DNA of 64,000 nt from Gymnopus androsaceus JB14 (lineage: Eukaryota > Basidiomycota > Agaricomycetes > Agaricales > Omphalotaceae). A model generated the notes under the pieces. That model saw only the letters and a program-made list of their open reading frames with translations. It did no database searches and had not been told where the DNA came from. Where the stretch lies: contig ML769532.1 in assembly GCA_009733575.1 (NCBI GenBank), positions 66,027 through 130,026 of the forward strand, given 5' to 3'. The stretch's first letter is position 1. Each line of letters begins with the position of its first letter. Positions 1 to 49,316 of this stretch are shown piece after piece. The position numbers were made by a program, and so were the translations under genes.

Positions 1-773
1 ATGCACTGTTTCTGTTTTCACTCCCCAGCTACTGGTACTTTGTTTCTTGATCACCACTGATGCTCACTGCTGATACCTTTTCTCCTATTCCCTAGTTAAA
101 GGTATGTAATATGCTTTATTAATTACTCACTACTAATATGTTGTTTGTTTCGCTCCCTAGCCGCTAGTGTGTAATATATTTTATTTCTTGCCCAATACTG
201 ATACTTTGTTCTCCTGTTCTCTAGGCAATGGTACGTAATATGCTTATTACTTACTTGCTACTAATACTTTTTTTTTTTGCTCCCCAGCCCTTAGTATGTA
301 AGATGCTATATTTCCTGTTCACTGCTGATACTTTGTCTTTCTATTCCCTAGATTGTATGTAACATACTATATTTCTTGCTTGTTACTAATGCACTGTTTC
401 TGTTTTTCACTCCCCAGCTGCTGGTATGTAATATCCTTTGTTTCTTGATCACCACTGATACTTTTTCTTCCGCTTCCCTAGTTGAGGGTATGAAATATTA
501 AATATGCTTTACCTCACTTGCTCACTACTGATGTATTGCTTTTTGCTCCCCAGCTGCTAGTATGTAATATGCTTTACTTCTTGCTCACTGCTAACATTTG
601 TCTTTCTGGGCCCAGAGGCTGGTATGTAGCATGTTTTATGACTCACTCAATGCTAATATGTTGCTTTTTCCTTCCGGGGCTTTCCTCTCTACTAGATTCA
701 AATGATGGTATGTGGTACTTAAATTATATTCCTTACTTTCTATTAACATGTCGTTTTTTCCTCTACAGCCTGA
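1..773 (+). CDS. Micro-exon gene, plus copy (3' part only; 5' end lies outside window)
   Basis: This is a chain of tiny exons between canonical small introns. Exons lie at 29-34, 96-101, 161-166, 225-230, 288-293, 352-354 (3 nt), 418-423, 482-487, 554-559, 616-621 and 696-707 (12 nt). The last exon starts at 769 and stops with TGA at 771-773. Introns are 56-74 nt. Each begins GTRYGT or similar (GTATGA once), carries a CTRAY branch-like motif and ends CCCAG or CCTAG. Read in phase 1, the phase set by the signal-peptide exon of the minus copy, the chain is open and ends in DSNDA. Phase 2 meets a stop at the junction of the first two exons; phase 0 is also open, so the phase here rests on homology. 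Exons matching the minus copy appear in the same order (CCGCTA, GCAATG, CCCTTA, ATT). The function is unknown; by homology it is the C-terminal part of a secreted repeat protein. Confidence 0.65.
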
Positions 774-845: not shown

Positions 846-3149
846 TCACTTTGGAGACTTGGAGTTGGGAGAATTAGGCGGACTCAGATAAAAAGATGGA
901 AAACGCTCATTTGTTTTGTACTTGCACATCCTTTCTTTGAATTCAGCTTCACCGTTTGTTTCTGGAAATAATTCGGGGCTCTGGAGAGCCCAACTGACAT
1001 ATATAATACTTATAAGATGATCAAATAAGTAGTTGACTGAGTAGTGTCGTCCACTTCTAAGTTGTTGGCAGACTATAGCTGATAGTAACAAGCAAGTAAT
1101 ATAGTATGTTACATACAATCTAGGGAATAGAAAGACAAAGTATCAGCAGTGAACAGGAAATATAGCATATTACATACCAACAACTATGGAGCAAAAACAA
1201 ACAATGGACTATTATTAATAGCAAGCAAGTCATAGAAAGTGTTACATACCAGCTCCTAGGGTCCAGAAAGACAAAGTATCAGCAGTGAGCAAGAAGTAAA
1301 ACATACAACATACCGCCAGCTGGGAAACAAAAAAAAAAGTGAGTAATGATCAAGTAATGAAGCATATTACATACTACCGGCTAGGGAAGAGGAAAGTATC
1401 AGCAGTGAGCATGGAACAAGGATATTACATACCACCATCTGGGGAACAAAAAACAAGATGTTAGTAGTGAACAAGCAATAAAGCATACTACATACTATCT
1501 AGGGAATAGAAAGACAAAGTATCAGCAGTGAGCAGGAAATATAGCATAGTATTACATACCACCAGCTATGGAACAAAGAAAACAATATACTATTAGTAGC
1601 AAGCAAGTCAAAGAAAGTGTTACATACCAGCTCCTAGGATCCAGAAAGACAGAGTATCAGCAGTGAGCAAGAAGTAAAACATATGACATACCAACGGCTG
1701 GGGAGCAAAAGAACAATGTGTCAGTAGTGAGTAATTAATAAAGCATAATGATATTACATACTACCAACTAGGGAAGAGGAAAACAAAGCATCAGTGATGA
1801 GCAAGGAACAAGAATATTACATACCAAGGTCTGGGAAACAAATAACAAGGTATCAGTAGCAAGAAAGTAATAAAGCATATTACATACTATCTAGGGAGTA
1901 GAAAGACAAAGTATCAGTGGTGAGCAGGAAATATAGCATATTACACACCAATAGCTATGGAGCAAAAACAAACAATGGTCTATTATTAATAGCAAGCAAG
2001 TCATAGAAGGTGTTACATACCAGGTGCTAGGATCCAGAAAGACAAAGTATCAGCAGTGAGCAAGAAGTAAACATATGACATACCTGTAGCTGGGGAACAA
2101 AAGAACAATGTATTAGTAGTGAGTAATTAATAAAGCATATTACATACTACCAACTAGGGAAGAGGAAGAAAAAGTATCAGTGGTGATCAAGAAACAAAGG
2201 ATATTACATACCACCAGCTGGGAAGTGAAAAACAGAAACAGTGCATTAGTAACAAGCAAGTAATATAGTATGTTACATACAATCTAGGGAATAGAAAGAC
2301 AAAGTATCAGCAGTGAACAGGAAATATAGCATATTACATACTGGTGGCTGGGGAGCAAAAAAAAAGTATTAGTAGCAAGTAAGTAATAAAGCATATTACG
2401 TACCATTGCCTAGAGAACAGGAGAACAAAGTATCAGTATTGGGCAAGAAATAAAATATATTACACACTAGCGGCTAGGGAGCAAAATAAACAATATATTA
2501 GTAGTGAGCAAGTATTTAATAAAGCTTAGTACGTACCAGCTAGGGAATAGAAAGACAAAGTATGAGCAGCAATCCTGGTTGAAGAATAAAGTGTATTACA
2601 TACCAATCACTGGGGAGCAAAAACAACAAATTAGTAGTGAGCAAAAACATAATATAGCATATTGCATACCTTCTAGTAAGGAATAAGAAGATAAAGTATC
2701 AGCAGCAACCACGAAATAATGCATATTACATACTAACGACTAAGGAGCAAACTCAATACATTAGTGGTACGCAATTAATAAAACATGTTACATACCACCG
2801 GCTAGGAAATAGAAAGAATATCAGCAGTAAGTAAGAAATAAAGCATGTTACATACCAGCGCCTGGGAAGCAAAATCAATACATTAGTAGTGCGCAATTAA
2901 TAAAACATGTTACATACCACCTTGCATACCACCGCCTGGGGAATAGGAAGCCACAGTATCAGCAGCATCAACCAAGTAATAAAACGTATTAGTACATACC
3001 ACCAGTTTCTATGTAGAGAGAGAAAGACAAGTTATTAGCGCCAAAGGGTCGTAACAGAACGGAGAAAGAAACATACCGGGAAGAGGGTTGGCTGAAGCGA
3101 ATGCAATCGCGAAACCTGCGATGATGAGGGAGATGAATTTGAGCTGCAT
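846..3149 (-). CDS. Secreted micro-exon gene (signal peptide + 30 exons of 3-9 nt)
   Basis: Exon 1 (3149-3077) encodes a signal peptide starting MQLKFISLIIAGF and ending near ANPLP, and leaves phase 1. Thirty micro-exons follow down to 1117: one of 9 nt (3008-3000), 23 of 6 nt and six of 3 nt (2672-2670, 2539-2537, 2283-2281, 1890-1888, 1498-1496, 1119-1117). Each lies between a GTATGT-like donor and a CCCAG, CCTAG or CATAG acceptor. All lengths are multiples of three and the 55 encoded residues contain no stop. Six micro-exons form a higher-order unit of 379-393 bp encoding about 11 residues, for example D-NL-VG-TV-GA-AG then D-NG-AG-TG-GA-VV. The product is rich in Gly, Ala, Val and Thr. 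A last exon (1072-846, about 74 residues, TGA) continues the same phase but looks less typical and could be read-through. A TATA box lies about 90 bp upstream. The family is unknown. Schistosome MEGs are an architectural parallel only, not homologues. Confidence 0.72.
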
Positions 3150-6100
3150 GATCAATGGGACGTAGTAGATAACGAGGTGCTGAGTAGATTGAGCTAGGGA
3201 GAAAGAGTCGAAGATCAATGCAGACTCAAGGCCATTATATATACTCATTTTACTTCCCGAAAGGCGTTTCGGGGTTGAAGAGTAAAATCTTTCCCCAGCC
3301 AATCGCAGGTTCGAAACACTTGTCTAGCAAAGCGAAATTGAAGCGAAGTGTGGCCTTCACTAGCAGGCTTCCGTAGCATGTCCATCGGAGTGAGCTTTCA
3401 AAGTCACTTTGACTTGCTTGTTGAGACCCCTATGTGACATTCACAATGTAAAAAGTTACTGTGTCCGGTTCCTGCGCCAGTAAATCTTCAATTAGAGTCA
3501 AGCAAAACGCAATACTATGTGTCCTTTGGAATCTCCTATGGGAGGTTTATCCGCGAATAGCAGGATCGACTTGCTCGCTTCCTCTTGCAGTTGCATTAAC
3601 CCTACTTACACGATCAAACGAGTCAGTCTGCTTGTTAATGTGCCCAATCCAATACGCCAATGGAAACCAATTATAGATCATATCGGATAGATCAAGCAGG
3701 AAAGCAAAGAACGCCAAGGAACGAACCCGGGCCTTTCCAAAAAAAAAAAAAAAAAAAGCATACAGAAATCTTGGTTCACAGGCTGCGCCAGGTTCAGCAG
3801 ATTGTTCGAAGTGCAGCGTTCAGAATGTCGAAGCACTTACGCCGCTCAATGTTACCCATATGACTTTGAGATGGCCAATGGGGAACGGACGGACGAAAAA
3901 AGAATGAAAGATGGTAGAAGAGAAACACCGGGATCGAATCGGTTGCATACTTGCCAAGTCTCCTGAAAGTCCGAGTCGTATTGTGTACAGCACATACCAT
4001 CTTTCAGTTTATCTCTAGCGAATTTCATGTCCGATGACTCCGTTTCCGACTCGTCGCGCTATGATGATGATTGTTTTCGGGGAACTTGGTATTACTTATG
4101 CAGCTCAAGGAAAGAAGCTCAGTGGAAGTTCGAATTCGGAAGTTTTACGGGCGTCTAACGAAGCTTTGTTCGGAACTGCTCTTATTTCGAGCCACGACGT
4201 TGACAGCGACGAGCAGCCTCTTCAAGATCGTTTTCACACTTGGAATTGCTCGTAAATATACATGTCTCGCCTGGTACGTGTCCTTGGTTTCGGTGTTGGC
4301 GAAATCTTTGCTCATTCTCAACGTTGTGGTTTGTAGTCAAATAACTGGTCGGATAGTCCATCTTTTCAACGGCCGCACAATCATCTGACTTGAGACTTGA
4401 CGTTTAAAGATCTGTCGATACGCGAGAATTGACCTGGCGTGGATCGTTGAAAGTTCTCGACACCTCCTTCGCCACCCGTCTCCGTCCACCCAATAACGCA
4501 CTCATCCTTTAGTCGCTGTAACAATGGCGGATGCCCTTGCTCTGCATCTGGAACTATCGCCACATCTTCGACTCGCACGGATTTGAGGAGTTCGCACTTC
4601 TGCTCATGCCGTGTCCACGGACGCTCCCTAAGCTTGCCTTTCCCTCTCCCAAGACTCCCACTTATGCTTGTTGGGAGGGCGCGGATTAGTGGATGAGTGT
4701 ACCTCCGGCTCCGCTTCCAGCTGCTCCTCCTGCTAGGATACTGCTCTTCCGAGGACGCCAAACTCAAATACGCAGACGAATGCGAGCCAGACCCGGACCC
4801 AGACTCGATCGAGGAGTGCAGGAACGAGGAGGCAGAATGCAAAGAGAGAGGGAGGCTTCTATTCCGCATTTGTCTACAGCTTCAAGAAGACAGATGATGA
4901 GAATTCGATCCCTCCTTCATCATTGTCTTCGTATTCGACTTCTATCGCGTCTAGTGGGACTTTGAGAAAGATACGGCGTTCGAATACTTGGAATGGTTAT
5001 GCAGGTTGTTCCACCAAAGCTCAGAATCCGAACAGTGGGATTTTGGGTCAGGCAGGTGGTTGAGGTGAGGTGACTCCGTGGGGTCTAGTTACCAGTGAGG
5101 TAGCGATAGAGTCCGCCGACCTCTCGGAATCGTGCATGGGCTGAGGACACGCTTTGCACCGACGCGCATTGACCGGTGTTCCATGTGCGCCTCTCCAATC
5201 TCCGTCTGATAATACTCATTCGACGACGACGACAGCGATGACTACACATATCAACTGCTGCTACGACTTCGACGCGAGCGATTGCTGGAGCCAGCGTGAG
5301 GGTTAGGGTCCGTCGACATCCTTGACTCGAACTCACTCTCGGTCTCAGACTCGAGCCACCAACTGGAGCCGATGCTCAAGGTTTAGCTGGAAGGCATTCG
5401 AAGCGGAGGTAGCTATAACAGAACAGCTTAGGTGTGTGTTTCCTTTCGCTTGTTCATTCGTGTTGTTGCGGCAGTACTGACTGAAGATTGAACCTAGATT
5501 GTAGTTTTGTTCGATGGTTCGAACTTCCAACCTTCAAAGTATTGATTCACGTCAACTCGAGTGTTGGGTTATGAGTTACGATTATGAGTCGACGATACAT
5601 AGGTTACTGTTACTGTTCCCTCTGGATTCCTTTTCACCTTTGCTCTTTCCGTTTTCTTGTCTTGTCCCGCAATGTATCAAGGTGATTGCTTCTGTATCAA
5701 TATTACTACCTCAAGACTCAAGTAACGGGAGTTGTGAGAACAAGAACAATACGAAGTACGAACTCTAGTCTGATTGCACTAATACTGACTTCGAAGATTC
5801 CGTAGGGACTAATCTACTAGTCACATCAGCGATGGGCATGGCGGAGCCAACCAACAGTGGGGTTTCATTGATACCCGCTCAAAGAAACAATGGACGATGT
5901 ATATGAATCAGTAGTACCATGTACATGAGTAGGTCTAAGGAGCATTAGGCCGATTTATTGTTTTCTGTCTCAGTGTTGTGATAGTACAGTGTCAAAGCTG
6001 ATTCTCGGCGCTTGATCGAAATCCAAATTGAGGCGGTCAAAGCTGGTTTTCACAAGGCTTTCGCTCCGAGTTCATTTTCCATGAAGATAACAATGGTCTG

Positions 6101-18021: not shown

Positions 18022-20503
<2,482 letters not shown>

Positions 20504-22730: not shown

Positions 22731-25700
22731 ATGGCCCCCTCGTCGTCGGCGACGACTTCGGTGCAAGTCGGTGAGTAATACCAAGTATTAATTGAGATTT
22801 CTTCTAATTTTGCGTCTAGCTCTACGAATAAGGCCACCGACAAATCAAGACAGTACTTCCATTCCAGCTCGCTTTCAGCGGACAGTAATTCATGCGACTT
22901 CTTCGACTTCTGTCGCTGTAGAAGCTTCTTCCGGCGCACCAGCTGCAGGGGGAGCCGCAGGAGCCGCAGCAACAGCAACTTCTTCTACTGCTGCTGCCAA
23001 AAAACAAACCTTCTCCTTTGATCAAGTCCACGATCCATCAACAACGCAGCATACTCTCTTTACTTCCACTGCTCTTCCTCTTATTTCTCGCTTTATAGAA
23101 GGTTTCAATTGTACAATTCTTGCTTATGGCCAGACAAGTAGCGGCAAAACGTTTACCATGACTGGCATTGACCTAGACGCCAACCCCTCTGACCCTAATA
23201 ATGGCATGGGCATCATTCCTCGCGCTGTTTCCACCATCTTTACTCAGGCCAGGCAGCTGAAAGAAGAACGAGGCAACTCCTGGAACTATAGCATCAAGGG
23301 CTCTTTCATTGAAATATACAATGAAGACCTTATTGATCTTTTGAGCCTGGACGACAGCGCTGGAGGTCGACGCGAGGTGCAGATTAGAGAAGACAAAGAT
23401 GGTCATATAATATGGGGTGGCCTGCGAGAAGTGAACGTCAAAAATCCGAATGAAGTCATGACGTGAGTAGCTTGTCTTTCTACAACACTCGTTCTAAAAT
23501 ATCCCATCTAGTCTCATTCGGAAGGGAACTTCAATTCGTCGGACAAATGAAACGGACATGAACGCACAGTCTTCTCGCTCTCATGCCATATTCTCCTTGA
23601 CATTCACCCAAAAGAGATTCAGCGGCTCTGGTGCGCCTCCTCGTTCTTCGTCCCCTCTACCCCCAGGCGGACGTTCTCCTTCCCGACTTGCTCGTCCTGG
23701 ATCAGTATACTCTGGTCCTGGTTCGACAGCGTCGGCATCTGGAACCAGAGTCGGCTCTCCTACCTTTGGACGTCCTGCAACTCCTAGCTTTGCTGCTGCT
23801 ATGGGTAGAGGCGGTGGACTGCGTCCGTCCAGTGCTCTAGGGCACGCCGGGGACCGTGCTAGTGCTGGAGGTGACGATGAAGGCGGAGAATGGACGACGA
23901 TTGTGTCCAAGTTTCATTTCGTGGATTTAGCAGGGTCTGAAAGAGTAAGCAGGCACTATCTATCCTATTTACAGGCTCTTAACCTACTCTAGCTGAAACG
24001 AACCGCCGCTGCCGGAGAGCGTATAAAAGAAGGCATATCCATCAACAGTGGTCTCCTCGCTCTCGGAAACGTCATCTCTGCCCTCGGTGATCCTTCCCGC
24101 GCAAAATCCCATACTGCAACTCACGTCCCTTACCGTGATTCCAAACTCACTCGTTTATTACAAGACTCTCTCGGTGGAAACGCACACACACTCATGATCG
24201 CTTGTGTCAGTCCCGCCGAATGGAACGCAGGCGAAACCGTTAATACGCTGAAATACGCTAACCGTGCTCGGAATATCAAAAACCGAGCTGTGGTAAACGA
24301 AAAGGAGGATGGATGGGATGATGTCGAGTGGTTACAGGGGACTGTTACTCGTCTGAGAAAGGAGGTGAAGGTGTTGAAGAGTGGTGGTAGTATCAGCAGT
24401 ATCGATGCTACTGCTGCTCCTGACGTCCTGGAGGGTGCGGGAAAGAAGGTCCTAGCTCAGATGACAGAACTACAAAACAACTACGAGGATTTAAGAGGCA
24501 AATTCGTCGATCGCACTGAAGAGCTCACCAGGCTACGTAGAGAGCTTGGCGAAAAGCATCGTGGCTCTTCGGGTGCGGTTTCTGGTACTGGAAAGTACGA
24601 GGAGATTGTTGGTCCCGTGATTGAAGAGTACGAAAAGACGATTGCAGCGATGGAGGCTGAGCTTAGTCTGAATCGAGCTGCGTTGAGGCATACGAATGAG
24701 ATGGTGGAAGAGAAGGAGGAAGAGTTGGCTGTTGTAACGGAGAGGCATGCTGCTACCGAGTTGTATGTTGAGGAGTTGAGGTCTAGAGTTGCGAAGCTTT
24801 CTGAGAGGGAAGCGTCTACTGAGGTAGGATAACCTAAACTTTTTCAAAATCTAGCCAGCTCATGACCGGTGATAATAGGCTTACGTCCGCGATCTGGAAG
24901 AGAAAATGCGAACGTACGACGAAACTGTCATGTCCTCAAGCGAGTCCATGACCGACCTCAAGCGCGAAATATCTCGGTACAAGGAATCCGATACTTATTC
25001 CGTCAAATACATCGCCGATCTAGAAGCTCGTCTTTCCCGCTCCGACGAGTCTGTAATATCTCTCCAACGATCTGTCGAAAGACTCGAAAAGGAAAGCGAA
25101 CAACGGCTCGAACAAGTCCAGGTCCTCCAGTCTCGACTGGAAGCTCTTCGACAGGACGGCGAGAGTTGGCGAAGTGATCTTGAGCAGAGGGAAGCCAAAG
25201 TAAAGGAACTGGAGTTGAAGATGGAGGAGTGGGAAAGGAAGAAGCAGGATGCGGGGGATGCGAGGATTAGGCTGGGAACTGTCGTGGGTGAGGTGGCGGC
25301 TGCGAGACGAAGTCTTGAAGTTGATCTATCATCGACTCCGGATACGTCTCCTGTCAAGGAACTCAGTGAAAATGAAGCTCTAGCTGTCAATGGCTTGGAC
25401 GACTCTTCTAGCGTCTCTCCATCTGCAGAGTCCGACCCTTCCCTTCAGAAAGAGTTTGCAGCCCTCCAACAAACACACAACGCTACGCTAGCGGATCTCT
25501 CTTCTGTGACGACGAAATACCGCGACGCTCTGCGAGAGATATCTGATCTTGCTGCCCAAATTCAAGAGGCGAAGCTCGCCAACGCTATAGGTACAGAAAG
25601 CGTGGCAGATACCACTGATTCTGAACGGCCACCCGAGAAACCCGTTGTACGGAGAAAAATGACTAGCGGGCGTCTTAGAGAATCCAGTGAGGCCCAATAC

Positions 25701-28700
25701 AACACTGGTGGCAGACGGCTTTTTTTCAGACAGGCGGCCTCAACAGAATCGCTCCACTCGAGGTAAGGATGGTTTTTGATTCATTTGGATATGTGCTTGC
25801 TAAATGTTTGGCATACAGGTCGCTTTCGCAATCGCAATCGCTTTCACAGGAGCTCTCCTCGGCTCGGTCGCGCAAACTATCTTCTTCAAGTCATGGAACA
25901 GCTAGTTCCCATTCCCCCTCCAACTCTCTTTCTGCAACAATGTTGAGTTCGCGTCCCAACCTTTCCATCTCTCTGCCCAACGGCTTGGCCAACTTTTCAC
26001 CACCAGAGAGATCCGCGCTTAGCCTTGAAAAGGAGATTATGCGTCTACAGGAAGTGTTGAAGGAGCGGGAAGCTGAGATTTCTAATCTTGAGATCTCGTT
26101 AAAGGCTAGCCAAGGCGATTTTGTTTCATCCCCTACTACACATCCTTCGGATCTCAAGCTCGAGATGAACGGGGATGTGAATGGCCGTCACGAGGATGAG
26201 CCTGCTACGCCGGAAAGCTTCTTGTCACCTCAGACGATAAACAAGTTTGAGCATATACGGAGAAGCATGCAGATGCACAACGAGAACGAGAATGGAAACG
26301 GACAGGATCATGACTCTGCTTCTGCGTCTGGTTCTATAGTCTCTGATACAGATGAGTCGCTTGATAGATTAAATGAGCTTATGTTGTACGTTTTCCCGTT
26401 ACTTTATGCCTGTGGCATTATACTAACCTGTTTAATATAGATCCATGGCACAGAAGGAATCGAGTCACCGCGAGGTTGTTGACAGTCTTACCAAGGAGCT
26501 TACGCAGACTAGACGACAGCTTGATGAGCTCACTACGCTTTCCAGGGACCAGGTCAGTAGTAAATGATGTACATTTCTTATTCCCCGGTCTTAAATTGTT
26601 TTTCCAACAGGCTCTCAATATGTCGACCGAAGTCGAGGCTTTGCGAGAGAAACACCGGAGAGATCTGGAGGAGCTCGCAGAGGTACAGCAACGCGAATCC
26701 GCATTACTTGATTCTCTTTCTAAAGCGGAAGCTGAACATGCTGCTGCTGTGGAAGAGATTCGAGCATCTCACTCTGATGCGTTGACGCAGAAGCAAAACG
26801 AGGTGGATTCCCTCCTTTCACGCATGAAAGAAGAGCATGAAACCGCACTTTCTACTCTTCGTGACGAGCTCGCTGCGGCTTCCTCCGCTCTCGAACAGGC
26901 TCTTCAGAGTCATGAAGAGGCCTTTGGCCAGCTGCGACAGGAACATGGGGAGGAGCTTCGTAGCAAACTTCAGGAAGCCAGTGACACCCTTGATCGAGCG
27001 CGCCAGGAGCAGGAGGCTACTCTTTCCCAGGTTGTGAGTGCTCACGCAGAGGAGTTGAAGCGGAAGGACTCTGAATCGACTGCATCGGTCCAGCAGACGG
27101 AGGAGGAGTTCTACAATGCTTTGACGAAGCTGCGAAGTGACCATGCCGAAACAATCGAGAGACATGCTGCCGAGTCTGCTGCAGCGTTGGAGAAGTTGAA
27201 GGAGGAGCACGCTGCTGAGCTACGGATGGCTGTCAAGGCCAAGGAGAGCTTGCTTTCGGAATCTCAATCGTCACGGAGCGTGGCTCTTCAGGAACTCCAG
27301 GACGAACACTCTTCTGCCATCTCCAGGAAGGAGACATCTCATGTGGAGGAATTAGAGAGGCTCAAGGCTGAGCATGTTCGTGCTCTTGCAGACAAGGATG
27401 AAGGTGCAGAGATTGAGCGCGGTAAACTGCGCTCCGCCATGACGAGGAAGGAAACGGCGCTCAACGAAGAGCTGGAAAAGGCAAAGGCTGACCATACTGC
27501 CATACTTTCTTCAGTCCAGCAGAGCATGCAGCTATACTCTCTTCGATCAAAGCCGACCACGTCGCTGTACTTTCTTCCGCACAAGCGGATCATGCTTCTT
27601 CGCTCGCTTCCTTGCAGGCTGAGCATGCTTCGCAGCTGGAACAACTACACGCAGAACATGAACAGCTGTTGTCCAAGCTCCAGGAGGAACAGAAGATTGA
27701 GAGTGAACGACTTGAATCTGCTCTCGCTTCCCTGCAGAATGACTCTTCCGCTGCTGCTACTGGTGCACGTGCGGCACTCGATGATGCTGTTCAATCCCAA
27801 AGAGAACAGCACGCCGCACTGCTGGAAGATATTACACGGTCGCATGAGGCTGAACTCCAGGATCTAGCTGCTGCTCACGAGCAGACGACCAGAGACATTT
27901 CCGCTGCCTCGGACGAGAAAGTAGCATCCCTTCTAGAAGCCCACACCGCCGAATCATTGAAGCTTAGAGCTCAACACCAGCAGGAGATCACCGAGCTGAA
28001 CAACAGCATCGTTGCACTCCAGGAACAGCACAAGTCGTCCTTGGAAGATGTTCGGGCTTTGGGTGAGACGACTGTGGCTAAGGCGACGCAAAGGCTACAG
28101 GCCACTCTAGAGGACTTGAAGAGTCAGCATGCCAAGGAAAGCGAAACTCTCCGCAAGGAGAACGAGCTTCTTGTGCAGGAGCTAGAAGCCCACAAAGTTG
28201 CAGCTGACGAGTTCTTGTTGCGAGACCGGGAACGACAAGGTCAAGAAGAGCAGATCACCCAGAAAGACGATATCATTCGAAGCATGCAAGAAGCGCTTTC
28301 GGGTGTCCAGAGCGAACGCGATGGTCTTGCCACCGAGCTTGCTAAACTTCGGTCGGAAATCGACAGAACTCGTATGGAGCAGTCGCTTCTGGTTCAGGAA
28401 GCCTCCAAACGCGAGTCTCTGGTTGTGGAACTAGAACGTCATCGTTCTGTGCTAGCGGAACTTCAGGAGAATCTCCAAAAGGTCAAGGACGAGAAGGACA
28501 CCTTGCAAACGGAAAAGGGTCGCTCAGATACGCTCGTGCGCGAGTTACAGGCGCAGATTGCTCGAAGTGCGTCTCCACCGAATGGCCGACCGACCGGAGA
28601 ACGAAATTTGCCATTCAATCGTGCCCCTGGTGCCAACAGTGCCAAGTTGCCGCCTCCTACACCTCCGCCATCCGTGCCGCCTCCACCTGCCCCTCGTACA

Positions 28701-29337
28701 ACTCAGCATGATCCAGGCTTTAGCGTATCCTCTGCGACTACCTCTTCTGGATTCTCTTCCTCCTCCTCTCGGGACTCTCAGCAGATTCCCGAATCTCCAG
28801 CCACACCAGCGACGTCTCTCGGTCATGGTTCGCTCATGACTCCGACGCCTCTATCAGACGGTAAATCGCAGGCCAAGATTGACGAACAAGCGAAGCAACT
28901 GGATGAGCAGGAGGCTATGATCAAGACGCTGAACAAGCAACTCACGCACTGTGAAAGCGATCTGCAAACGCACATGGATCTAGTGAGCACCCTGGAGACC
29001 TCTTTGGGCGACTCGGAGAAGAATCGTAGGTCTCGCGTCAATTTCTTACTTCTGTATACTGACCGTCTTTATTCTACTAGTTCGGAAAGCTCGTATGCAT
29101 GCAACAGAGCTTGCTCGTGAAAGGGACCGGTTGAATGGAGAAATCGACACGCTCCGGAAGGAGCTTACCGAGACTAAGCGAGAGGTGATAAATGTCCGCC
29201 AATCAATCGTGGAAGAAAAGCAATCGTACGAGCAGCGTCTAGACGAAGAGAGGAAGGCCAAGGAACGTGCCCGCCAACAGCTGGATTCTCGGATGGACGA
29301 GCTGTCGAAACGAAAATCCAAGTTTGCTTGTCTGTAA
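22731..29337 (+). CDS. Kinesin-4 type motor with long coiled-coil tail (apparent frameshift)
   Basis: The N-terminal motor domain has [10 protein letters not shown]-loop [25 protein letters not shown] (switch I), VDLAGSER (switch II), [17 protein letters not shown] and [18 protein letters not shown] basidiomycete-style Ser/Pro/Gly insertion of about 90 residues sits between switch I and switch II. The motor runs into [17 protein letters not shown], as in kinesin-4/KIF4-KIF21 proteins, followed by a very long coiled coil and a C-terminal KRKSKFACL. Exons: 22731-22770, 22820-23462, 23512-23945, 23994-24823, 24879-25762, 25819-26385, 26441-26552, 26611-29025, 29081-29337; about 2040 residues. 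Near 27516-27524 the coiled-coil frame shifts by one base with no intron available: upstream frame ends AILSSVQQS, downstream resumes [15 protein letters not shown]. One extra G would restore continuity, so this is a sequencing error or a real truncating mutation. Role: plus-end microtubule motor (family knowledge). Confidence 0.92.
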
Positions 29338-45633: not shown

Positions 45634-46641
45634 CTAATACTTCAGCCAATGACCTCGGTTTGCCAAAAGCATTTGGATGCGGTTAGGGAATGCAGCATAG
45701 AGCTTTTGGACATAGTTGTTGAAGTCAGCGCTGTACCAAATGCTTTCAAGGGCAGCCCAAAGTTGTGTTTGGGAACATGGTGCCGGATTCATTTTCTCGA
45801 GATGTTGCTCAAGCTCCACCCATGCATTTTCGATAGGACTAATATCCGGAGACTTTGATGGCCACTTGAGAATGTAAATGCCATGGTCTTTGAACCATTT
45901 CTGAGTGGCTCGAGCCATATGTTTGGGATCATTATCCTGCTGGAAGATCCACCGGTGTCCTTCATATCTGGAATCTTGAACACTTGGAAGCAGGGAGTCC
46001 TGGAAATCTATTAGCTTGAAGTAGACACTGGAAGCAAAGGACACGCACCTCTAAAATCTTCATATAGACAAACCTGTCCATGATACCCTCAATACAATGA
46101 AGCTTTCCGACACTATTTTTATGAATATAACCCCAAACCATTACTGAGCCTTGTCTCACTGTGAGACTAGAGTCTCAGTCAGTGGTTCCTGAGATTTGTA
46201 TCTACGGCACCAGCAAAGGCCATCGGAGCCTCCTGCAAGCACAAATTTGGACTTGTCGGATATCATCACCCAATACTGATCCCAACCAGTGGCAGTGCTC
46301 CAGTCCTGCCAGGTTCGAGCAAAAGCAAGGTGCTCTGCAAAATTTTGAGCACTGAGGATAACTTTACGGCAACGGACAAATCCTACAAGCCCTGCCTTAT
46401 GAAGCTTGTCGTGAACTGTGCATTGAGACACTCCTGGAAACCGTTTCCACTGAAGGTCAGCACCATCGGTTGCATCTCCATTATCCAGGTCAGCAATTCC
46501 TTGGGCAAAATCTTCTTTGGAGATAGCAGGCAGGCGACCTCAACAAGACTTTTTGTAGTAGCACCCTAGGAGGATTATACAGCATTTGGTAGGTGTTACT
46601 TTGGCTGGAGGGAGCCCAATGGCCTTTTTGCGTGCAGTCAT
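45634..46641 (-). pseudogene. Tc1/mariner-type transposase, inactivated
   Basis: Reading on the minus strand from about 46641, a decayed N-terminus (MTARKKAIGLPPAK) is followed in another frame by QWKRFPGVSQCTVHDKLHKA. Next is the first catalytic Asp region (VMISDKSKF) and, after a stop and a frame change near 46160, VRQGSVMVWGYIHKNS. The C-terminal frame (46044-45634) is intact: FQQDNDPKH holds the second Asp and SPIENAWVELEQHL the Glu, spaced D34E as in Tc1-like DDE transposases. At least one frameshift and an in-frame stop interrupt it; a 34 nt GTGCGT...CAAG interval may be an intron. It is not functional as it stands. Confidence 0.85.
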
Positions 46642-47730: not shown

Positions 47731-49316
47731 CCCAGTGGTAAGGATAGAGCTGCGGACCAGTTGGTCCGAGCAATGAAAAAAAAACAATACCGCCAGCCAG
47801 CGGTAAGGATAGAGCTGCGGACCAGTTGGTCCGAGCAATGAAAAAAAACAATACTGCCAGCCAGCGGTAAGGATAGAGCTTGCGAAGAAAACAAGACCTT
47901 ATGCCGAGGAAGCTCCCGCGATTCGGTGGGAAACAAAGAAGGACTGGAGTCCAGAATCAAAAAGATTCTCTTATCGGGCTAGTGAGCCCGACGAGACCTG
48001 CAACGACAGGTTCCTTCATGAGGGCTATATGTAGCCCTGACATGGCCAGCATCCCTCTGGGCTTGTCTTGATTGCATCGGGTGATGCAAGGAACTGAGCG
48101 ATAGAGGCTCACCAAGGAAAGACTCAAAAAACCAATGTAAAATTGGCGGCGATGAGAGTCAGGATCAAGACGACTGAGTGCCTAGATGCCGAGTCTCTTG
48201 CCATGCTCAGCTTATCCTCNNNNNNNNNNNNNNNNNNNNNNNNNNNNNNNNNNNNNNNNNNNNNNNNNNNNNNNNNNNNNNNNNNNNNNNNNNNNNNNNN
48301 NNNNNNNNNNNNNNNNNNNNNNNNNNNNNNNNNNNNNNNNNNNNNNNNNNNNNNNNNNNNNNNNNNNNNNNNNNNNNNNNNNNNNNNNNNNNNNNNNNNN
48401 NNNNNNNNNNNNNNNNNNNNNNNNNNNNNNNNNNNNNNNNNNNNNNNNNNNNNNNNNNNNNNNNNNNNNNNNNNNNNNNNNNNNNNNNNNNNNNNNNNNN
48501 NNNNNNNNNNNNNNNNNNNNNNNNNNNNNNNNNNNNNNNNNNNNNNNNNNNNNNNNNNNNNNNNNNNNNNNNNNNNNNNNNNNNNNNNNNNNNNNNNNNN
48601 NNNNNNNNNNNNNNNNNNNNNNNNNNNNNNNNNNNNNNNNNNNNNNNNNNNNNNNNNNNNNNNNNNNNNNNNNNNNNNNNNNNNNNNNNNNNNNNNNNNN
48701 NNNNNNNNNNNNNNNNNNNNNNNNNNNNNNNNNNNNNNNNNNNNNNNNNNNNNNNNNNNNNNNNNNNNNNNNNNNNNNNNNNNNNNNNNNNNNNNNNNNN
48801 NNNNGAAAACAAGACTTATGCCGGGGAAGCTCCCGCGATTCGGTGGGAAACAAAGAAGGACTGGAGTCCAGAATCAAAAAGATTCTCTTATCGGGCTAGT
48901 GAGCCCGACGAGACCTGCAACGACAGGTTCCTTCATGAGGGCTATATGTAGCCCTGACATGGCCAGCATCCCCTCTGGGCTTGTCTTGATTGCATCGGGT
49001 GATGCAAGGAACTGAGCGATAGAGGCTCACCAAGGAAAGACTCAAAAAACCAATGTAAATTTGCGGCGATGAGAGTCAGGATCAAGACGACTGAGTGCCT
49101 AGATGCCGAGTCTCTTGCCATGCTCAGCTTATCCTCTGATAAGCGCACCTTGCTAGCTTATCGCGGGTATTGTTTTTTTCCTTTGCTTGAACCAACTGGT
49201 TCACAGTCTATCCTTACCACTGGTTAGTGGTATTGTTTTTATTATTTTTATCCTTTTTATTCTTTGCTTGGACCAACTGGTCTGCAGCTCTATTCTCACT
49301 GCTGGTTGATGGTACT
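47731..49316. repeat. Foldback-like element with hairpin-rich core, interrupted by assembly gap
   Basis: The left side has about 2.3 tandem copies of a roughly 65 bp unit (GGTAAGGATAGAGCTGCGG, ACCAGTTGGTCCGAGCAA) at about 47732-47880. Inverted versions of the unit lie at about 49163-49228 and 49265-49316. The core is a 333 bp segment present twice in direct orientation, 47887-48219 and 48805-49137, on either side of the gap. Each core copy is a run of separate perfect hairpins (for example arms 47975-47980/47985-47990 and 48021-48027/48032-48038). No open frame is conserved between the copies. Confidence 0.6.
48220..48804. other. Assembly gap (585 N)
   Basis: Unknown bases. Because the same 333 bp segment borders both sides, the gap was probably caused by this repeat and its true size and copy number are uncertain. 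Open frames crossing it are artefacts. Confidence 0.99.

Follow-up and report, generated by a model that had tools for sequence, protein, structure and literature searches.

Can the coding sequence of a fungal gene be divided into dozens of exons of only one or two codons? This question is raised by a 64,000-nt stretch of the genome of Gymnopus androsaceus JB14 (assembly GCA_009733575.1, contig ML769532.1, positions 66,027 to 130,026), which is called the window in the following. An apparent tandem repeat near its left end was read in an initial annotation as a gene of 30 consecutive micro-exons of 3-9 nt behind a signal peptide, located at window positions 846..3149. The analysis presented here supports the core of this proposal: paralogues on two other contigs, exons that diverge faster than the introns, conserved splice sites and a reading frame rich in purine-any base-pyrimidine (RNY) codons suggest a fungal micro-exon gene.

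Anatomy of the minus-strand array

On the minus strand, a 73-nt exon at 3149-3077 encodes MQLKFISLIIAGFAIAFASANPLP plus one nucleotide and ends after codon position 1 (phase 1). The signal peptide in this exon was judged by eye. About 90 nt before the ATG, the 17 nt AAAATGAGTATATATAA (3235-3251, minus strand) are invariant at the three loci carrying the signal-peptide exon and may represent a TATA-type core promoter. The exon is followed by the micro-exon array (1083-3076), which comprises 30 complete GT-AG introns with lengths of 52-68 nt; a 31st, broken off near 1083, is represented by its 5' part. All of them are phase 1 introns with GTATGT-like donors (also GTACGT, GTGTGT and GTATGC), a branch-like site and a YAG acceptor.

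At the level of sequence, the 30 consecutive micro-exons were confirmed from 3149 to about 1083, and the single open phase held throughout: all 30 exon lengths are multiples of three, while the intron lengths take all residues modulo 3. Every micro-exon starts at codon position 2 (30/30), and the open frame amounts to 83 codons including the signal peptide. Six exons have 3 nt, 22 have 6 nt, one has 9 nt (micro-exon 1, 3000-3008) and one has 18 nt. The size range of 3-9 nt given initially applies to 29 of the 30; the 18-nt micro-exon 2 (2918-2935), which is in frame, widens it to 3-18 nt. This exon looks like two units fused through loss of most of an intron, with GTATGCAAG as the remnant. The 3-nt exon AAG (Lys) at 2670-2672 is identical in the plus-strand copy on the same contig and in a copy on another contig, C93 (both described below).

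Six micro-exons form a repeat of 11 residues, as had been noted, with 33 coding nt per 382-393 bp. Three tandem copies are present (1949-2341, 1560-1948 and 1178-1559), and a tandem-repeat finder reported periods of 62-68, 122-133, 256 and 392 bp at the array. By eye, the introns between 1083 and 3076 often alternate between a subtype with a CTGAT branch and CCCTAG end and one with a CTAAT branch and CCCCAG end, which could be the mark of a two-unit duplication step.

The boundaries were obtained with a chain finder, whose splice scores were set by hand from the fungal consensus and which has no preference for exon length or multiples of three. Setting each boundary at the last AG before the next donor had misplaced several of them and was abandoned in favour of this program. 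At a threshold of 13, the program gave chains of 30 introns in the minus array and 10 in a second array on the plus strand, and no chain above 3 elsewhere in the window. Even at the laxest threshold, the longest chain with exons of 3-18 nt on both strands of the remaining 60.8 kb had at most 5 introns, and dinucleotide shuffles of the array (2 x 200) gave at most 4. In another 42.9 kb of this genome (N excluded), spread over five stretches, the longest chain had 2 introns, except for 12 inside the C230 array described below; two of these stretches, L041 and L013, contain parts of the array family.

An inverted second array and the 3' end of the gene

The second array lies inverted on the plus strand at window positions 1-773, and its 5' part is lost in a 12-kb N gap. 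Its micro-exons occupy 29-34, 96-101, 161-166, 225-230, 288-293, 352-354, 418-423, 482-487, 554-559, 616-621 and 696-707; the first two were placed by eye, since the donor at 35 is GTACTT. Within these limits all lengths are multiples of three. The array closes with the units AGGCTG and ATTCAAATGATG and then CC-TGA, a stop in the micro-exon frame, so that the natural terminal exon starts, at 769-773, with two coding nucleotides and the stop (TGA at 771-773). This array end recurs at L009 4954-4675 with 98% identity. As judged from the sequence, the signal-peptide exon joined directly to this terminal exon would leave almost no mature protein.

The minus array has no such end. It breaks off within an intron near 1083 and is joined there to the 3' flank of the plus-strand copy, with a rearrangement junction, possibly an assembly join, at 1045-1083. 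Positions 846-1045 are the 3' flank of the plus array read antisense, so the proposed extent stands from 3149 to about 1083 and is not supported for 846-1083. The frame does stay open to a TGA at 846 from two of the three possible acceptors (77 or 75 codons), while the third meets an immediate stop. A 3' exon running to 846 was rejected as unsupported all the same, because the array breaks near 1083 and the segment is antisense flank that happens to be open.

Related arrays elsewhere in the genome

Across the 83.3 Mb and 934 contigs of the genome, related arrays were found on at least three contigs, with at least ten matches: six on C150, the contig carrying the window arrays, three on C93 and one on C230. 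Only the best candidates were scored, so that these counts are lower bounds. Two further genome searches (at least 15 and at least 6 matches) led to the same three contigs. The signal-peptide exon and promoter are present at three loci, including C93 and C230. Between C93 and the window, 4 of the 73 nt of this exon differ, compared to 69 of 370 intron positions in the same stretch.

The C93 array is interrupted by two insertions, at about L012 5556-6860 and from about L012 8325 to about L013 450; one of its donors is lost (ATATGT) and two are weakened (GTATAT). The second insertion is flanked by copies of a sequence beginning TGTTAGGTAACGAGAT, which we take to resemble a retrotransposon's long terminal repeats. 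Upstream of the C93 signal-peptide exon, the sequence occurs as a tandem duplicate (L012 3321-3976 and 4065-4997).

On C230 the signal-peptide exon has 76 nt, 3 nt more than in the window, with the same end phase. The array there consists of monomer units of about 60 nt and shows 71% identity to the C150 array over 932 nt. The chain finder called exons of 72 nt (one), 6 nt (ten) and 9 nt (one), and the 72-nt call was read by eye as 3 nt, an intron and 6 nt across a GTACTT donor. By eye, the introns are mainly of the CTGAT/CCCTAG subtype. Since this monomer pattern differs from the two- and six-unit pattern on C150, the arrays have probably undergone at least two expansions that differ in kind but follow the same multiple-of-three rule.

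The C150 copy at 51.4-53.9 kb has no start, and two exons in its 5' part depart from the rule (8 and 5 nt), which would be expected after a loss of constraint. In the C93 and C150 plus-strand copies the chain finder also gave lengths of 2, 5, 8, 70 and 73 nt. By eye, the 2 nt (C93) and the 5 nt CAACG (both copies) arise where the second of two close AGs was chosen, and the two calls of 70 nt (C93) and the one of 73 nt (C150 plus copy) are unspliced stretches beside a lost (ATATGT) or weak (GTATAT, GTACTT) donor. AAAAG (5 nt) and AACTGATG (8 nt) in the C150 plus copy are real departures from the rule.

A match to the signal peptide on contig C50 was weak (E 0.098, 50% identity over 24 residues) and may be due to chance. 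It belongs to a gene for a G/Q-rich repeat protein (C50:30827-30898, minus strand; L039), for which the chain finder reported no chain with at least four introns; a family of this type could perhaps originate from such a conventionally structured gene.

Reading frame and residues

In the phase set by the signal peptide, RNY codons account for 47 of 59 codons in the window, 27 of 28 in C230, 17 of 23 in the plus copy and 25 of 36 in C93. The other two frames have 0-7 RNY codons per array, and one of them has 7-10 stops. Two bases before the splice donor, where A is usual, 19 of the 22 exons of 6 nt in the minus array have T, so that a codon is a likelier cause than a splice preference. By eye, the residues encoded by the micro-exons are mainly G, A, V, T, S, N, D and I, and the conceptual protein of 83 residues has neither Cys nor Tyr.

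When any exon of the array was joined to any later one, a stop arose in only 2 of 465 possible joins. Because the introns are phase 1 and the exons almost universally end in a purine, the junction codon starts with A or G and is hardly ever a stop; exons can therefore be added, lost or skipped without a break in the frame.

Exons diverge faster than introns

In all seven comparisons between paralogues or tandem units, the exons differed more than the introns, with rate ratios of 2.2-4.1 and p values from 8e-17 to 0.02. Exon versus intron differences were 15/170 vs 55/1455, 14/48 vs 31/433, 52/130 vs 110/1118, 19/41 vs 69/370, 13/33 vs 39/295, 11/33 vs 38/291 and 10/33 vs 40/288; the comparisons are not independent, and the fourth contains misaligned exons. 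The rise is confined to the exon: compared to C93, the 6-nt exons differ at rates of 0.29-0.53 and the intron positions, fairly evenly, at 0.06-0.12. When hexamers are compared with each other, the intron rate reaches up to 0.21, in the branch zone. Intron divergence in the main C93 comparison (0.098) is about that of the upstream flank (0.105; 91 mismatches in 868 aligned bases). Donor and acceptor sites changed more slowly than the intron interior in 6/6 sets (p<0.05 in 5/6).

Codons with a changed amino acid exceeded the intron-based expectation in 6/6 sets, significantly (p<0.05) in 4/6. Observed and expected numbers were 24 vs 7.3 (p 2e-9), 7 vs 2.2 (0.0035), 7 vs 4.0 (0.098), 6 vs 2.8 (0.04), 7 vs 2.8 (0.0086) and 5 vs 3.0 (0.15), the first set being that of C93, in which the amino acid was changed in 24 of 36 codons. 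Codons with synonymous changes only stayed near expectation (2 vs 2.3, 0 vs 0.8, 2 vs 1.5, 1 vs 1.0, 0 vs 1.0 and 2 vs 1.0). The codon and RNY tests left out exons 2 and 3, exon 14 of C93, whose donor is lost, and, in the comparison with the plus copy, exon 9 (3 vs 6 nt); the C93 5' comparison, with misaligned exons 3 and 5, was left out of the codon test. The first codon of each block was assumed to begin with G, which is wrong for one C93 block and for hexamer 1. The ratio of nonsynonymous to synonymous differences (pN/pS) was discarded as a sign of positive selection by itself, since its values (0.62-2.12) do not show it; the codon-level count does. From these data, diversifying selection on the micro-exons appears to be the better reading of the exon excess.

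Interpretation of the arrays

The preferred explanation, which we consider probable, is a family of fungal micro-exon genes that encodes a short peptide, secreted and variable in sequence. Several observations weigh against it. There is no complete copy in the assembly: the minus copy in the window is without a natural 3' end, C230 runs off the end of its contig, the C150 plus copy has no start and carries the exons of 8 and 5 nt, and C93 has the two insertions and the one lost and two weakened donors, beside which unspliced sequence would disrupt the frame. Part of the purine excess at codon position 1 comes from the splice-donor consensus. Furthermore, the 3-nt exons vary little (2/12 sites compared to C93), the introns of the C93 5' stretch, at 0.186, lie above the flank, and Nei-Gojobori pN/pS scatters around 1, since two or three bases are altered in many codons and some of this change is assigned to synonymous sites. 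An exchange or mutation process bound to the exons would also raise all codon positions. No homologue was found among 5.8 billion proteins in a search that needs shared words and annotated exons, and no Pfam family was above the cut-off, the one weak match (E 0.24) being to the C230 reading.

The incomplete copies could mean that the arrays are remnants of a once active micro-exon gene family, whose signatures are inherited while all copies are now broken. The damaged donors of C93 and the off-frame exons of the C150 plus copy would fit this, as would the state of the copies, all of which are truncated, interrupted or cut off by a gap or the end of a contig. The minus copy in the window nevertheless keeps its promoter, its signal peptide and 30 of 30 exons in frame, and repeats lead to gaps and contig ends in draft assemblies, so that we regard this explanation as unlikely. 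Somewhat less likely still is that the array matters and not the peptide, i.e. that the introns are constrained for a boost of expression, an intron RNA or chromatin, and the exons are spacers kept open to avoid mRNA decay. Variation at all three codon positions, the pN/pS values and the fact that C230 still aligns to C150 are in line with such a function; but intron divergence in the main C93 comparison is not below that of the upstream flank, and spacers need neither RNY coding (27/28 in C230) nor an excess of amino-acid changes over synonymous-only ones.

The periodicity would also suit a plain 60-bp satellite with chance GT...AG ends, which is removed as one intron or never transcribed. 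Frame, splice-site conservation, the in-phase stop of the plus copy, the promoter and signal peptide at three loci and the excess of amino-acid changes in the exons make this very improbable. The assembly raises a last doubt, namely that repeat copies were collapsed or mis-joined. The window starts where the 12-kb N run touching the plus array ends, the far side of this gap closes with 182 nt identical to window positions 1-182, and positions 181-1045 are 97.8% identical to an inverted stretch. These features concern the layout on C150 only, and the architecture recurs on C93 and C230; as an explanation of the arrays, an artefact is hardly credible, even if the exact 3' junction at 1045-1083 may be one.

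A possible mechanism and its significance

If the arrays are genes for secreted peptides, transcription would start from the TATA promoter and run through the conserved signal-peptide exon into a ladder of introns (52-68 nt), with one or two codons left at every step, until a terminal exon beginning with the stop closes the ladder. Splicing would proceed by intron definition, intron after intron, and would resemble recursive splicing that leaves 3-6 nt per step; removal in sequence is suggested because two splicing complexes would scarcely fit on a 3-nt exon at the same time. The product would be a secreted peptide with perhaps 60 residues past the signal peptide, and since skipping is almost free, isoforms are likely. 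The array might grow through tandem duplication of exon-intron units, after which selection alters the exons while the introns keep the splice signals. The signal peptide, the small family and the fast exons suggest that the peptide is most likely an effector or recognition peptide, which meets a partner organism or non-self mycelium.

Taken as a whole, a peptide generator based on splicing, with a sequential intron-defined ladder, almost free in-frame skipping, and growth by copying of units followed by diversification of exons, is put forward as a tentative possibility. If it exists, a single locus would give rise to a whole set of related secreted peptides that serve recognition or interaction, and few coding sequences known from fungi would be divided as finely as those of this family.

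The arrays would also offer a natural test of a spliceosome facing successive exons of 3 and 6 nt; exon definition is hardly feasible at this size, and two spliceosomes would find little space at the same time. Fast change is seen in islands of 3-6 nt, for which the introns provide a built-in yardstick. Gene finders cannot model such exons, and whole families of secreted peptides could therefore hide in sequenced genomes.

Other features of the window

Beside the arrays, the window contains a kinesin gene on the plus strand (22792-29337), which is closest to those of mushroom-forming Agaricomycetes. Its best named matches are from Mycena, Marasmius, Agrocybe, Infundibulicybe, Moniliophthora and other Agaricomycetes (66-85% identity over 34-100% of the query), and its candidate introns, at 48-55 nt, are similar in size to those of the array. 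A taxonomic placement by 5.8S rRNA yielded no match. A piece at 19091-19522 presumably resembles the elongator subunit ELP3, and two open frames on the minus strand at 45634-46539 presumably resemble pieces of a Tc1/mariner-type transposase. An N gap is located at 48220-48804, with 65-bp tandem repeats nearby (47732-47880).

Comparison with known systems

The initial annotation knew of no described fungal gene of such density, and none was found in a literature search, whose coverage was without most subscription papers and all preprints. As far as this search shows, the arrays would represent the first fungal micro-exon gene family, at the lower limit of exon size. Exons of 3 nt, which had been placed at or below the size usually thought to be spliceable, are less unheard-of than this suggests, given that one report describes isolated exons of 2-3 nt in the gene models of a basidiomycete (PMC6540522). 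Isolated micro-exons are likewise described from P450 genes of Phanerochaete, from CYP621A of Fusarium with an exon of 1 nt confirmed by reads, from Xlr2 of Trichoderma and from gene models of Phlebia radiata (PMC1184071, PMC12940212, PMC11121469, PMC6540522). These sit inside ordinary genes, whereas the gene described here is built of micro-exons.

In recursive (ratchet) splicing, a long intervening stretch is removed at serial acceptor-donor pairs, in which AG and GT abut and nothing is left. In the fungal array, by contrast, 3-18 nt lie between AG and GT, and there is no exon of zero length. The constraint on reading frame and splice sites likewise separates the array from non-coding satellite DNA.

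The SP7-like effectors of Rhizophagus also have a signal peptide followed by imperfect repeats, and their exon-intron layout is taken as a sign of common origin (PMC11333574). The repeats of these fungal proteins are hydrophilic, with conserved islands and a nuclear signal, whereas the residues of the array are, by eye, mainly small or aliphatic, with one or two per exon.

Two parallels are found in animals. In the micro-exon genes (MEGs) of schistosomes, the signal peptide is mostly located in a long 5' exon and the central coding part consists mostly of largely symmetrical micro-exons under 36 bp (26 of 33 symmetrical in one set); the products are short and secreted, and the frame survives exon skipping (PMC4671649, PMC4015677, PMC5825161). 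The fungal gene likewise has its signal peptide in a longer 5' exon (73 nt) and a central part of symmetrical exons below 36 bp (30/30 by sequence). It differs in that 28 of 30 exons have 3-6 nt, all 30 are symmetrical and the units form a tight tandem with introns of about 60 nt. MEGs further have a long 3' flanking exon and differentially spliced variants; the coding part of the last exon in the fungal plus copy comprises two nucleotides and the stop. The array lies on a fungal contig, and the protein search (no homologue) and the Pfam search (no family above the cut-off) gave no sign of common descent with the MEGs of platyhelminths.

The bicycle family of aphids is named for two CYC motifs. 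Its genes have many tiny internal exons, nearly all of which start at codon position 2, and their rapid protein change is attributed to positive selection, with the gene structure preserved; a megacycle gene with more than 100 micro-exons is also described (PMC9168663). The internal exons of the fungal array share the start at codon position 2 (30/30), but unlike these insect proteins, its 83-residue reading contains no C and no Y and hence no CYC motifs. The fungal family would work like the schistosome MEGs or the aphid bicycle genes and, as far as the searches and the lack of Cys and Tyr tell, be unrelated to either by descent.
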